In this document: in pieces, positions 15,903 to 47,491 of the stretch
How the letters are laid out: every line of letters begins with the position of its first letter
How positions within the stretch are numbered: the stretch's first letter is position 1
NCBI RefSeq assembly: GCF_013388255.1
Contig: NZ_CP058215.1
Coordinates: forward strand, 2,046,001-2,110,000
Source: Methanolobus zinderi
GTDB lineage: Archaea > Halobacteriota > Methanosarcinia > Methanosarcinales > Methanosarcinaceae
Length of the DNA stretch: 64,000 nt
Direction of reading: 5' to 3'
Notes under the pieces: generated by a model
What the model saw: only the letters and a program-made list of their open reading frames with translations
What the model was told of the DNA's origin: nothing
The model's database searches: none
Program-made: the position numbers and the translations under genes

Positions 15903-17078
15903 ATGAGCGAACAGGGGGACCATGTCATTATTCGAAGAATTGACCTGTCTTTTATGGTCAAGGTACTCTGTATAATGCTGGTAAGCTGCAACGTTGCAGC
16001 TACCGGCGATATTGAGAAAGAGCACGCAGACATCTACAGCCGGAATAATGTAAAGACAGCTTTGCCTGTGCCTTACTACGATCAGGGAGATACAAGCTGG
16101 TGCCTTTATTCCTGTCTTTCAATGATGCTCAGCTACAATAACAGAAATATCGAACCATGGGAAATTGCCTCATATTTCGATTCGGGACATGACGAGACCT
16201 TCGAGGGTCAGTACAATGTATTTGACAATTCACTGGAGAACTATTTCAGCGAAAAATGTTCTATTCAAATAAAAAGAACGGTGTGGGGTTTTAACATCGG
16301 TAATTTCGATGTTGAAAATTTCGATTCCCGGATAAGAGAAAATATTGACAGAGGACAGCCTGTTTTGCTTGCGTTCCAGTACACTGACCCTGCCGGTGCG
16401 AAGAAAGGACATGCTATTGTTGCGACTGGTTACGATGAAGAATGTATATATCTGACAGATCCCAGTGGTGCTATTACAGAGGACTTCTTCGCACATAAAG
16501 AAGGACACATTGCCGTACCCGTTAGCTGGTATGAGTTCAATGAGAGACTTGTCAGAGAAATAATGCTGACAAACCTTGCATTTACCATAGAGATCACAGA
16601 AGATGCACCTTCAAGCAGTCCTGATGGGTCCATATATCTGGTTGACAGCACGGACCATAACTACAGTCATGTGTATTTCACAAATCGCTCCAACAAAAAT
16701 GATGTCGGCCTTTTGCGCCTTGACGGGAAATATGAAAACGGTTACCTTATTGTCAGGCAGGACAATATTTCCAGAGAAAGAAAGATCTCTTTACAGGACA
16801 GCATGAGCCTTTACTTTACAGTTGCCAACCCGACCCCTGAACAGAAAAACTATACCGTTACCAGTGAAGTGGTCAGCAAAGAATCCGGCAATAAGATAGA
16901 TAACTTCTTTTTTTCAAGCGAGATAGAAGTTGAAGGTGGCAAAGACCTCTCAAAGGGAATCAACTATTCAAATCAGATTGAAAAGCTTCCCGCCGGAGAC
17001 TATTCTTTTACTTTAATACTTTCTGATGATAAAGGAAAGCATATTGATTCGCTATCATTCGAGCTATATATTCCCTGA
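15903..17078 (+). CDS. Secreted C39-like cysteine peptidase
   Basis: 391 residues. A hydrophobic N-terminal helix (MVKVLCIMLVSCNVAAT) predicts export. Residues about 50-235 are a papain-fold C39-type domain: catalytic Cys in GDTSWCLYSC, His in KGHAIVATGYD, and Asp in YLTDPSG. Gln or Asp of the oxyanion hole lies just before the Cys (YYDQGDTSWC). The C-terminal 140 residues form beta-rich repeats with Asn-rich loops, probably an extracellular Ig-like binding unit. In bacteria C39 enzymes process peptides; here with no transporter nearby it may be an envelope protease. ATG 15903 sits one base after GGAG, so ATG at about 15954 is possible. Confidence 0.75.
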   Translation: MSEQGDHVIIRRIDLSFMVKVLCIMLVSCNVAATGDIEKEHADIYSRNNVKTALPVPYYDQGDTSWCLYSCLSMMLSYNNRNIEPWEIASYFDSGHDETFEGQYNVFDNSLENYFSEKCSIQIKRTVWGFNIGNFDVENFDSRIRENIDRGQPVLLAFQYTDPAGAKKGHAIVATGYDEECIYLTDPSGAITEDFFAHKEGHIAVPVSWYEFNERLVREIMLTNLAFTIEITEDAPSSSPDGSIYLVDSTDHNYSHVYFTNRSNKNDVGLLRLDGKYENGYLIVRQDNISRERKISLQDSMSLYFTVANPTPEQKNYTVTSEVVSKESGNKIDNFFFSSEIEVEGGKDLSKGINYSNQIEKLPAGDYSFTLILSDDKGKHIDSLSFELYIP

Positions 17079-17507
17079 AAATGTATCAGTACTCAGGAAT
17101 CCTTTATTCAATAGAGAAATATTAAATGGAATCCAGATAGTGAAGAGGTCGATATATACAAGTCAATAATATAAATATCTATTAAATAATTACACATCAA
17201 AAAAATACCGCATAAACCCCCATATTTCCACTGGAGAATATATAGCAAAGTAATGATAACAAAGGTCAGACTTTAATTACACCTTTGCTTAAATTATAAT
17301 CCAGTATGAAATTCATTCAAGATATGGTTAAATACAATCGATTTACTTTTCTAATTTGCAGACAGAGGCGCCGGGAGTGCTATGTCTGAATAGGTTCGGT
17401 GTGAAGTAACGGAGTGAAACAAAACCAAATGATAACTGTGCCTGTATGGCAGAGGTCATTTTATAAATATATAAAAACCAATACCAGAGAACTATGGGGG
17501 AAAATAA

Positions 17508-17845: not shown

Positions 17846-18208
17846 ATGATCGAGATAATACAGGGTTTGCCGGATAAAGTTGTAGCAGTTCGCCTGAGTG
17901 GTGTGGTAAAAGGAGAAGATTATGACAATATACTGGCTCCTGCCATTGAGGAAAAATTGAAGGATTACGAAAAGATTCGCTTACTTTATCAATTGGGTCC
18001 GGATTTTGAGAAATTTAGCCGAGAGGCTATGTGGGAAGATGCAAAACTTGATATGCAGAACTTCACTTCATTCGAAAAGATTGCAGTTGTATCCAATGTG
18101 GAATGGATGATCACCGCTATGGAACTTTTCAAACATGTTATTCCGGGACAGGTAAAGACATATAGCAACGAAGAGCTCACCGAAGCTAAAGACTGGATAA
18201 GTAAATGA
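17846..18208 (+). CDS. SpoIIAA-like (STAS-related) protein
   Basis: 120 residues matching the SpoIIAA-like family (DUF3478): VVAVRLSGVVKGEDYDNIL at the start, a central strand LLYQLGPDFEKF, and the second half FEKIAVVSNVEWM with EEAMWEDAK-type helices. The fold resembles STAS domains that bind sigma regulators or sulfate-transporter tails; family members with lipid or hydrophobic ligands are known, and no role is set for archaea. GGGGAG five bases upstream supports ATG 17846. Monocistronic, convergent with the metal exporter. Confidence 0.82.
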   Translation: MIEIIQGLPDKVVAVRLSGVVKGEDYDNILAPAIEEKLKDYEKIRLLYQLGPDFEKFSREAMWEDAKLDMQNFTSFEKIAVVSNVEWMITAMELFKHVIPGQVKTYSNEELTEAKDWISK

Positions 18209-26061: not shown

Positions 26062-28205
26062 AAGTCGTATTCCTCCCCGTTATTGTAGCTTATTGCAGGA
26101 TTGCTGCGTTTGACCACCTGGCAATTATCCCATTTCCAGGGTTTCCAGCTGCTTCCGGAATCTTTAATAGCAACATCGCCTATCGGGTTTTCCCATTCGT
26201 CCGTGGGTATGTAATAAGTTCCATCTTTTCTTGTGACCTTTACCCACTGATCAGGACTTACCTCATGTCCTTCCCCATTCTCATCTGTATAGGGCATTGA
26301 ATAGGAGGGTCCGTCTGAGGTCTGTGTAACTTTACCGTATGAATCCAGGAATGCGTTGGGTGTGGAAGTTCCTATTGGACCATTTGTTATTACTCCCTGC
26401 CTGGCATCGCTGTTCTTTATTGCATTGTCAAGTTTAGGCAGGATCATAACCACTTTTTCAGTTACTTCCAATCCGGTCTTTACAAGATCACCAACCACAG
26501 GTATCTTGTCAGCAACTTCCTGTCCACCTTTTGTAACTACATAGAGAGCTTTTGCAGTGGTACCCGAGGACCCTTTCATCTCACTGAGCTTTTCAGTGTC
26601 CTTGTAGGCACCATAGTACTTGTCAACCTCTTCTTTCACGCTGTTGAGCTTGTCCATTTTCTCAAAGTTCTTTGCTATCTTAGAGTCACCATAAGTATCT
26701 GAGAAGAATGAAGCTGCTTCGTGTCCGGTCTTGAGTTTTTCCATGCTTTCCTTTCTGGTCTTGTCAATAGCATCAAGATAGATCGTTTCAGTGAGTTTTT
26801 CGGCAACTTTCTCCTTTCCTTCGTAATCCGAACCGCCACCCACTTCTACTGGCTCGCCTTCCTCAAAGGTAAAGTCCTCTCCAAAGACGTCTTTGATTAC
26901 AGCCCTGTTGGATTCCACTTCCTGTTCTACACCTGTGTCCATTTCATCAAGTTTGTCGATATCCTCAGAACTTTCACCTCTTATCATATCGATGATCTTG
27001 GCCTGCTCCTGCGTGGATTCAACAAATTCTTCTGGAAGGACATAGTTCATCTGGATGTTCTGAAGATCTTCGATATCCTGCTTATCGATATCCTCTACGT
27101 CTACCTCGCCTTCATACCGGACCATTCCCTCCTCTTCCAGAATATCATACACTAAAAACAGATCATCAATATCCATGGGTTCGTCATCAGATTCTATGAA
27201 TCCAGTATCCTCAGGTTCTGTATCATCATCTGTAAGAGATGGGATGTCCTCTGGAACCGGGTCCTGCAAAGAATCATCTTCTGCATCTGCAATAGAATTT
27301 TCTATCAGATCTTCCTGTAAAGTTGTATCCTCCTCTATTCCTTCACCAATGGCACCACTTGCGACAGACTGTTCTACAAGTGTGTTGAAGATGTTCTCGG
27401 CTACAGGCTGGATCTCAGGCAAAAGAACATTATAGCCATCTATGGTTACAACAACACGGGTTCCATAGGGACTTGGAGCATTGAACATAATATCGCTGCT
27501 TACCGTCCATTCAGGATTTTCAGACATGGACATCCGCTCATCCATATCCCAGTAATCAATACTTCTCATTTCAGGTTCAAGATCAGATTCCGAGAAATAG
27601 ACCAGACCCAGGTGTTTATCGTCACCCACATACCAGACCCCATTATCATTGATATCCGGCTTGACCTCTTTTGCGGCAGCAATCACTATTTCATTGATGT
27701 CTTCTTCTGTATGTTCAACTACCTGAGGTTCCGGACTGCTCACCGTTCCTGAAAGGACGCCACTTGCAGCAGATTCCTCCACAAGTCTGATAAATATGTT
27801 ATCAGCTACCGTTTCGATCTCAGATAAGGGAAGATAATGACCTTCTATAGTAACATAGACCTGTTCTCCCCCGGGAGTCGGAGCTGTGAATGATGCAGAA
27901 CTTAGACTGTATCCGGACTGGTCAGTCGTTTCCCCTGTCATCATGATCATCGGATCATCTACATCCCAGTAATCCACACTCTTCATCTCATCCTTCAGAG
28001 GACCATTCTCCCAGAAACCTACTACTCCCACATGGTCTTGATCCTCGCCATACCATGCAAAATCTTCAGTGAAACCGGGTTGTGCCTCTTTTCCGGCTTC
28101 GTAGACAATGGTTTTTACCTCTTCATAATTGTATTCTGCTGTAGCTACAGGTACAGACAGCAAAAAAACAATAAATATAACAATACTAAATATATCAATT
28201 CTCAT
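26058..28205 (-). CDS. Large secreted protein with duplicated N-terminal domain
   Basis: 715 residues. Signal peptide (FSIVIFIVFLLSVPVATA), then two copies of one domain of about 125 residues (about 25-150 and 170-297), each ending with a helix of type VADNIFIRLVEESAASG / VAENIFNTLVEQSVASG. An acidic linker (300-350) leads to a long helical part (350-590) with an amphipathic hydrophobic stretch, EVADKIPVVGDLVKTGLEV, and a Trp/Gly-rich C-terminal domain (SSWKPWKWDNC). I do not recognise any segment. Modular order, a membrane-active-looking middle and a variable end recall secreted effector proteins, but no toxin motif is present. First gene of a three-gene operon. Confidence 0.7.
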   Translation of the reverse strand: MRIDIFSIVIFIVFLLSVPVATAEYNYEEVKTIVYEAGKEAQPGFTEDFAWYGEDQDHVGVVGFWENGPLKDEMKSVDYWDVDDPMIMMTGETTDQSGYSLSSASFTAPTPGGEQVYVTIEGHYLPLSEIETVADNIFIRLVEESAASGVLSGTVSSPEPQVVEHTEEDINEIVIAAAKEVKPDINDNGVWYVGDDKHLGLVYFSESDLEPEMRSIDYWDMDERMSMSENPEWTVSSDIMFNAPSPYGTRVVVTIDGYNVLLPEIQPVAENIFNTLVEQSVASGAIGEGIEEDTTLQEDLIENSIADAEDDSLQDPVPEDIPSLTDDDTEPEDTGFIESDDEPMDIDDLFLVYDILEEEGMVRYEGEVDVEDIDKQDIEDLQNIQMNYVLPEEFVESTQEQAKIIDMIRGESSEDIDKLDEMDTGVEQEVESNRAVIKDVFGEDFTFEEGEPVEVGGGSDYEGKEKVAEKLTETIYLDAIDKTRKESMEKLKTGHEAASFFSDTYGDSKIAKNFEKMDKLNSVKEEVDKYYGAYKDTEKLSEMKGSSGTTAKALYVVTKGGQEVADKIPVVGDLVKTGLEVTEKVVMILPKLDNAIKNSDARQGVITNGPIGTSTPNAFLDSYGKVTQTSDGPSYSMPYTDENGEGHEVSPDQWVKVTRKDGTYYIPTDEWENPIGDVAIKDSGSSWKPWKWDNCQVVKRSNPAISYNNGEEYDL

Positions 28206-32445: not shown

Positions 32446-32715
32446 TGTTACACCCTTCCTTTTTCAGCAGGACCATAGACACATACAAAAAATATAACTA
32501 TATCCAATAAAATTTTATTGAAGCATTTTTATATAATGTTGTTGTGTGTGTGATGATACTATATAAAAATACTCATTCCAATAATATATTAAAATATTAA
32601 CTATAGTAATTAATTTCCGCAAGTTATATTTACTAAAGTTACTTCTTGTAAATACCGATCTTTTTATCGGGACCACTGATACAAAAAGGAAATCTTTTCG
32701 CAGGAGTTGTACAAC

Positions 32716-33501
32716 ATGAAGAAACCGTTGCTTGATGTAGTGTTTGCATCCGACAAAAGAAAAAATATACTCCTGTTACTCCAGGATGGTCCCAGAGAAA
32801 TGGAAGAGCTTCTGAAATCAATTGATACAAGCAGACAGGCATTACTCCCGCAAATAAAGATACTTGAAGACCATTATCTTATAAGTCGGTCGGATGACTC
32901 CTATGATCTGACCTCAGTGGGAAAGTTAGTGTTTGATGAAATTTTCCGTTTACTGAGTACCATTGAGGTCTTTGATGGCAATACCGACTACTGGGGAAGT
33001 CACAACCTCGATTTTATACCCCCACATCTGCTTAAAAGAATAAAGGAGATGGGGAAATGCGAGCAGGTAAAGCTCTCACTTACGGAGTCATATCAATTGA
33101 ACCAGGATGTGGTCGAAACCACCTTCATCTCAGAAAACTTCTTTGTCATTACTTCCTTTTTTCACCCCGATTATCCAAGGGTTTTCCATGAAATGACCAG
33201 TGAAAAGGTTACCGTAAATATAATCGTTCATAAAGATGTCTTTGAAAAGATACAAAAAGACCACAGGGAACATTTCCAGAAACTCATAGACGGCGGATAT
33301 TTCAAACTCTATGTTTACCCGGAAAAAATGGGTTTCCAGGTTATTGCACACAACGACTATCTTCTGCTACTGCGCCTGCTAACAAAAGAGGAAGAAGTCG
33401 ATATCAAGCACATGCTATGCTCCAATCCCGAAGCTCTTGAATGGGCAACGGAGCTCTTTGATCATTATCGCAAAGATGCTGCTCCGGTAAGCAAGCTCTA
33501 G
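32716..33501 (+). CDS. FilR1-type winged-helix regulator
   Basis: 261 residues. Winged helix at about 5-75 (RKNILLLLQDGPREMEELLK, then LLPQIKILEDHYLISRSDD), followed by the FilR1/DUF1724 domain (about 130-255; FHPDYPRVFHEMTSEKVTVN). Methanosarcinales carry many such proteins; the Msr and MreA members control methyltransferase and catabolic genes. ATG 32716 follows GGAG by nine bases. It is divergent from the giant hybrid kinase across 270 AT-rich bases and may answer to the same signal. Confidence 0.88.
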   Translation: MKKPLLDVVFASDKRKNILLLLQDGPREMEELLKSIDTSRQALLPQIKILEDHYLISRSDDSYDLTSVGKLVFDEIFRLLSTIEVFDGNTDYWGSHNLDFIPPHLLKRIKEMGKCEQVKLSLTESYQLNQDVVETTFISENFFVITSFFHPDYPRVFHEMTSEKVTVNIIVHKDVFEKIQKDHREHFQKLIDGGYFKLYVYPEKMGFQVIAHNDYLLLLRLLTKEEEVDIKHMLCSNPEALEWATELFDHYRKDAAPVSKL

Positions 33502-46844: not shown

Positions 46845-46984
46845 ACGTTCTTATTTTTACTGTTTATTATGATTTTATCACTATATGCAGGATGCAAAGC
46901 CGGTTACAGGACTTTCATGAAAATAATATTGCTCTGAAAAATTATTGATATACGAGAATGTTTTATAAGAAAAACTCCTTTTTG

Positions 46985-47240
46985 GACAAAAGAAAAGGTA
47001 GGATGAGGCACCTGATAAACCACCACGCTTTAAGGTGCCTCTTTCCTTGTTGATCCGAGATGTCCCCACATCTCTTAAACCCCCACTCCTCAACCCACTT
47101 CCGGTTGAGAAAGAAGGAAAGCTGCCTGATTACCCATTAAAAGCATCTCTTTCCTTCGTGTCTGAGATATTCCCCAATATCTCCCTTTAACTCCACTCCA
47201 CAGAGTTTGCAAGCTTCCCAATGCCTGCAACCACTAATTA
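46985..47240 (-). ncRNA. Candidate structured RNA, two related units
   Basis: No gene lies in 46845-47491. Five inverted repeats crowd into 47005-47183: GAGGCACCT/AGGTGCCTC (47005-47041), GAGATGT/ACATCTC around CCCC (47057-47074), CTCAACC/GGTTGAG (47089-47109), GAAGGAAAG/CTTTCCTTC (47113-47157) and GAGATATT/AATATCTC around CCCC (47164-47183). On the minus strand two units align, each with a GAGAT-GGGG-ATCTC hairpin followed by AAGGAAAGAG and a GGT(A/T)ATCAGG element. The first hairpins differ in sequence but both stay fully paired. A TATA-like TTATATG is near 47253 and a U-rich trailer (CCTACCTTTTCTTTT) follows 46999, which supports the minus strand. Confidence 0.6.
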
Positions 47241-47491
47241 GTTGTTTTCACATATAACCAGAACGGATTATAATCTGATCAATGTTACTATCTTTTTTTG
47301 ACGAAGAATGTTTCAATACCATTAAAATTTCAGCTGTGCTCGAAATAATAATTGAATAATGAATATATTTTGCTTTTTTATTGCATACCAGAAAATAATG
47401 GTACACCAATTGTCCTATGTAGTACACATGAAGAGCGGGCAATAGTCGAGAGCTTCAAAAACAATTCCGGGATTCTGAAAACAAAGCACAG

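Follow-up and report, generated by a model that had tools for sequence, protein, structure and literature searches.

A putative family of multicopy small RNA genes sharing an 18-bp-iterated promoter in Methanolobus

The locus in Methanolobus zinderi

Positions 46985-47260 of the window (the whole 64,000-nucleotide stretch of M. zinderi DNA analysed here) contain no credible gene, the sole reading frame being one of 70 aa on the minus strand, in keeping with the gene-free stretch described in the first-pass annotation. Read 5' to 3' on the minus strand, the locus consists of an array of elements phased at 18 bp, a TATA box, a 5' hairpin, unit 1, a linker hairpin, unit 2, a T-rich trailer, and a relic of a gene on the opposite strand (Table 1). 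The five inverted repeats listed previously were all located on the minus strand: GAGATATT-GGGG-AATATCTC at 47164-47183, GAGATGT-GGGG-ACATCTC at 47057-47074, CTCAACC...GGTTGAG at 47089-47109, GAGGCACCT/AGGTGCCTC at 47005-47041, and GAAGGAAAG/CTTTCCTTC at 47113-47157. That inventory overlooked a sixth, the 5' hairpin at 47207-47230. The block AAGGAAAGAG is common to both units, as is the element reported as GGT(A/T)ATCAGG, which reads GGTAATCAGG in unit 1 and GGTTTATCAGG, with one extra T, in unit 2. The TATA-like TTATATG reported upstream was found within GGTTATATG, the U-rich trailer corresponds to the T-rich segment after unit 2, and the spacing from the TATA box predicts a transcription start near 47229.

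Table 1. Coordinates of the RNA element in the window and of the zinc-ribbon protein genes
Feature	Position	Strand	Basis or remark
sRNA element as a whole	46995-47230	minus	one copy of the putative multicopy RNA gene family
Upstream array, four 18-bp-phased elements GAAATTTTAATGGTATTG, AAACATTCTTCGTCAAAA, AAAGATAGTAACATTGAT, CAGATTATAATCCGTTCT	47260..47331	minus	lag-18 autocorrelation and PWM scan
BRE/TATA box GGTTATATG	47251..47259	minus	TATA-like word statistics over 116 copies
5' hairpin TTGCAGGC-ATTGGGAA-GCTTGCAA, loop ATTGGGAA	47207..47230	minus	probable 5' end of the RNA
Unit 1: hairpin A (GGGG loop) 47164-47183 and degenerate hairpin B	47110..47198	minus	covariance model match, 33.2 bits
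Linker hairpin CTCAACCggaagtgGGTTGAG, joining unit 1 to unit 2	47089..47109	minus	inverted repeat and fold
Unit 2: hairpin A (GGGG loop) 47057-47074 and hairpin B 46995-47048	46995..47088	minus	covariance model match, 114.5 bits
Hairpin B loop GTGGTG in unit 2	47021-47026	minus	loop positions 94-98% conserved across the family
T-rich trailer and conserved 3' block (TTTTTCTTATAAAAC..CTCGTA)	46921..46994	minus	downstream TATAAA excess
Relic of FilR1-type gene 3' end (HYMQDAKPVTGLS*)	46879..46920	plus	alignment to FilR1 3' end at locus L323 of genome G026
Zinc-ribbon protein genes L479 and L507	G000 2350179-2350313 and 1623571-1623696		structured G-rich 5' leaders, array promoter

The minus strand of the element folds at -101.4 kcal/mol (z -5.8 relative to shuffles), and the plus strand gives z -6.7, with none of 200 shuffles as stable as the real sequence. 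Two other readings of the locus were discarded. A small open reading frame across the 5' hairpin (GUGGGGAAAAUGA..) lacks its AUG in many copies, and a kink-turn in hairpin B was set aside, since the bases required for its G-A pairs form G-C or A-U pairs instead. A search of the whole window against Rfam 15 returned two tRNAs only, and the best score for the element itself was 16.9 bits where 40 was needed, below the gathering cut-off, in agreement with the earlier statement that no known RNA family matches.

A covarying family and its distribution

In a DNA search, several Methanolobus genomes proved to contain the element, in full or in part. With R2, a covariance model built for the unit, we searched 186 genomes of the order; it matched 11 of the 27 Methanolobus genomes and gave no match in the other 26 genera. 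The resulting collection contains 146 units (143 distinct) at 116 loci, single-unit loci (86) being commoner than double-unit loci (30). Among the richer genomes there are 32 units in genome G012, 22 each in G026 and G021, 21 in G010, 19 in G006, and 15 each in G015 and M. zinderi, the last in about a dozen dispersed copies. Neither plasmids nor phages gave a match when searched for the RNA, and scans of public collections with 15- to 16-nt patterns returned mostly chance matches, though Methanolobus surfaced among them. One candidate (L013 in G028) was rejected, its match covering only 30 nt with no comparable structure. In G026, two loci (L328 and L332, at 2839831 and 3072025) are near-identical over the units and trailer and both converge on a FilR1 gene, and a further loop copy at 3072754 is cut off by the end of the linearised chromosome. 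In g8, another genus of the same taxonomic family, each genome carries two paralogous RNA genes (L414-L423) that have promoter sequence, a GGAGUGG linker and G-rich-loop hairpins in common with the Methanolobus RNA; the relationship is distant, and none of these genes is recovered by the unit model.

The covariance search, which the first-pass annotation had proposed as a check, revealed covarying pairs in the homologous units. In the 146-unit alignment, 96.2% of cells pair, and double changes occur in 18 of the 22 pairs, with 224 double-change cells observed compared with 64 in shuffles. When the partner is slid by 1 to 3 columns, pairing falls to 38-49%. At pair 36/98, 62 sequences have A-U and 58 have G-C; at pair 131/169, 76 sequences have G-C and 56 have A-U. 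This alignment was fitted to the covariance model and leans towards its structure, and an unguided alignment shows the same pair exchanges; the significance values are inflated because paralogues are not independent. The exchange between ATGT/ACAT and ATATT/AATAT, read earlier as a compensatory change, is real, and the 146 units confirm it as covariation. Departures from pairing on the minus strand are G-U in 175 cases and A-C in 50, with G-U exceeding A-C in 17 of 21 pairs, suggesting that the minus strand encodes the selected RNA.

Sequence conservation is concentrated in the loops. Both GUGGUG and GGGG are 94-98% conserved at each position, and GGG is found in the loop of 69 of 75 5' hairpins, whose stems differ and which fold at a mean of -12.6 kcal/mol, compared with -6.9 kcal/mol when shuffled. 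The loop sequence AAGCGTGGTGGTTT is almost confined to the family's own copies in three genomes. As judged from the alignment, the stems are interchangeable and the G-rich loops (GGGG and GUGGUG) are held fixed.

A shared promoter and the neighbouring genes

A TATA-like word lies 25-110 nt (mostly 58-63 nt) ahead of unit 1 in 89 of the 116 copies, compared with 8.7 in shuffles. Upstream of it, the sequence repeats every 18 bp (autocorrelation z 18.4 at lag 18 and 6.2 at lag 36, over 89 copies), and the best palindrome, GAAATTnnAAnGnCnTTnAAA, is mostly found 54, 72, 90, 108 or 126 bp (n x 18) before the TATA box. The same upstream array is present in the copies of G026, an R15-like genome with loci at, for example, 214446 (+), 602219 (-), 1863176 (+) and 2934087 (+). 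Downstream, TATAAA occurs within 110 nt of 72 of 116 copies, compared with 12 in shuffles. Scanning the window with an array-plus-TATA PWM gave a score of 50.5 for the element and 14.5 for the runner-up. Taken together, these data strongly suggest that the copies share a dedicated promoter. Covariation, G-U bias and a promoter at near-fixed spacing agree in supporting the first-pass reading of the locus as a structured RNA of two related units on the minus strand; its dispersed, multicopy nature and its pairing with FilR1 genes go beyond that annotation.

Downstream of the runner-up site in the window (17254-17500, plus strand; 14.5 bits) lies a 5' hairpin, CAGACAgaggcgccgggagtgctaTGTCTG, whose loop contains GGGAGTG; the site is possibly a diverged relative in the gap between genes that end at 17078 and start at 17846. 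A PWM scan covering 864 kb of the M. zinderi genome gave extra matches at 2354705 and 2356259, near a FilR1 gene, which are probable diverged relatives.

At the orthologous site in five genomes without the element (G022, G005, G025, G019 and G007), the glycosyltransferase gene is about 0.7 kb nearer to the DedA gene, implying that the element was gained or lost as a block; gain in the M. zinderi lineage would be a simpler reading than loss elsewhere. This shorter site, along with the dispersal of the copies, is what a selfish or passive repeat of the MITE or REP type, spreading and folding by chance, would leave behind. Against such a repeat, no flanking terminal inverted repeats were found (the flanks of the empty site are too diverged for target-site duplications to be read), and the compensatory changes, the one-strand G-U bias and the promoter spacing all persist in diverged copies, which argues for selection on an RNA. 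We therefore regard a selfish origin as very improbable and have little doubt that these are genes of a real sRNA family.

The 864-kb scan also matched the promoters of two copies of a gene for a 45-aa zinc-ribbon protein that carries the sequence LKQLKECPECKARL... This protein is found in all 27 genomes, including those free of the RNA. Among the genes sampled, 13 of 14 from RNA-bearing genomes have an array promoter (scores of 6.7 to 26.5); in RNA-free genomes, by comparison, the promoter score is 0 or below in 15 of 16, and 1 of 16 has the array promoter. In the Archaea, zinc finger micro-proteins form an established class, and in Haloferax they have roles in stress adaptation (PMC6562870). 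The zinc-ribbon protein is the best candidate for a first partner of the RNA, the one link between them being the shared promoter.

The copies are also associated with genes of the FilR1 family (PF08350). At 21 of 116 loci a convergent FilR1 gene has its 3' end 77-84 nt from the end of the RNA copy, and a FilR1 gene lies within 500 nt of 52 of 116 copies, compared with about 3% expected from gene density. The spacer between RNA copy and convergent gene is conserved. Across the 27 genomes, FilR1 number tracks unit number (Spearman 0.73, kinship ignored), with 22-57 FilR1 copies in 8 of the 11 RNA-bearing genomes and 6-20 in RNA-free genomes. One of the 34 FilR1-family regulator genes of M. zinderi lies in the window at 32680-33498 (plus strand). 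These observations raise the possibility that each RNA locally regulates its convergent FilR1 gene through tail-to-tail transcription, a 3' overlap or a shared bidirectional terminator. However, more than half of the copies, including that in the window, have no FilR1 gene within 500 nt and yet keep the promoter and the structure, and co-duplication can explain the neighbourhood; we consider local control unlikely. Over 80 nt, the 3' flank of the window copy can be aligned to the G026 locus L323, where it covers the spacer and the final codons of the FilR1 gene (alignment score 84, against at most 30 in 300 shuffles), and by this alignment the copy keeps only a relic of a lost convergent FilR1-type partner. 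The idea that FilR1 genes are themselves driven by the sRNA promoter was rejected, since as a class these genes lack the array in their upstream regions.

Possible modes of action and relation to known systems

We propose that the element encodes a small RNA, about 235-280 nt long, that acts in trans. The array could be bound by a stress regulator (possibly one responding to cold) and would let one regulator switch on every copy together, so that many copies might be transcribed at once. The RNA would then act as a multivalent decoy, its GGGG and GUGGUG loops, presented on interchangeable stems, capturing an RNA-binding partner, for which the co-regulated zinc-ribbon protein is the best candidate. 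For this explanation as a whole (a trans-acting sRNA gene, a dispersed paralogous family and a multivalent decoy) we judge the case to be evenly balanced, and the decoy mechanism taken by itself is tentative.

Two other modes of action would also involve the G-rich loops. If the RNA were a trans-acting antisense sRNA, the GUGGUG and GGGG loops would pair with C-rich sites in mRNAs and the number of copies would set the dose; the loops are indeed the constrained part of the RNA, and pairing is the usual mode of sibling sRNAs whose loops are fixed and whose stems vary. Nevertheless, CACCAC, ACCACC, CCACCA and CCACTCC are not enriched in 534 translation-start regions of the M. zinderi genome, the duplex energy with FilR1 mRNA is equalled or bettered by 5 of 60 permuted probes, and a Shine-Dalgarno sequence, being itself G-rich, cannot be masked by a loop of this composition. 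An antisense role is therefore doubtful. Alternatively, the loops might mimic the Shine-Dalgarno sequence and pair with the 3' end of 16S rRNA, as GGTGG (17:1) and TGGGG (10:1) are enriched in the ribosome-binding sites of the same genome, yet the loop retains GGUGGU, in which one pair would have to be G-U, and almost never has the better-matching GGUGAU, making a ribosome-directed RNA very unlikely. The decoy is favoured over antisense pairing because the antisense tests gave nothing, a comparison that is weak in that it covers 534 start regions and simple words.

CsrB is known to capture CsrA. The likeness of CsrB and CsrC to the Methanolobus RNA is one of design only, in that the same G-rich loop motif recurs on several hairpins: CsrB and RsmZ bind CsrA/RsmA through loops bearing GGA, whereas the loops here are GGGG and GUGGUG, and the RNA described here comes from dispersed multicopy archaeal genes and has a partner in candidate form only. 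A more far-reaching and speculative reading, to which we give little credence, is that the dozen or more sRNA copies and the zinc-ribbon gene form an archaeal regulon on one 18-bp-iterated promoter, with the RNA as a sponge for the zinc-ribbon protein (or for FilR1-type regulators) in a circuit resembling that of CsrA and CsrB.

Qrr and LhrC are multicopy sibling sRNAs of bacteria and resemble this family in their paralogous copies, fixed loops and variable stems, but their loops are C/U-rich rather than G-rich, their sequences are unrelated, and the 18-bp-period promoter array is a feature of the Methanolobus genes. To our knowledge, most archaeal sRNAs are single-copy and few have mechanisms. 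The intergenic regulatory RNAs sRNA154, sRNA162 and sRNA41 of Methanosarcina mazei, also of the Methanosarcinaceae, are single-copy, and the unit model finds nothing outside Methanolobus. No conserved RUGAUGA or CUGA boxes of C/D box sRNAs were detected in the 146 units, on which Rfam was likewise silent.

The closest parallel lies in the same genus. The main text of a differential RNA sequencing (dRNA-seq) study of M. psychrophilus R15 describes nine "highly conserved" sRNAs induced by cold (8 C) and sharing an upstream "cold box" (PMC5378194). In the 22-unit genome G026, the gene over position 26,651 encodes a PAS-HisKA-REC kinase, as that text describes for Mpsy_0031, suggesting that G026 fits R15. 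The nine R15 sRNAs probably belong to the family described here, and if they do, transcription has already been shown in a relative. Sequences, a structure, a repeat period, a link to FilR1 and a family assignment are all absent from that main text, and the family, its structure, the promoter period and the gene pairing would be new even if the identity is true. In that case the R15 sRNAs, until now listed simply as cold-induced, would gain structure, members and a candidate regulatory element. A covarying family of up to 32 units per genome, with its periodic array and regulator pairing, may offer a handle on the posttranscriptional stress response of methylotrophic methanogens.
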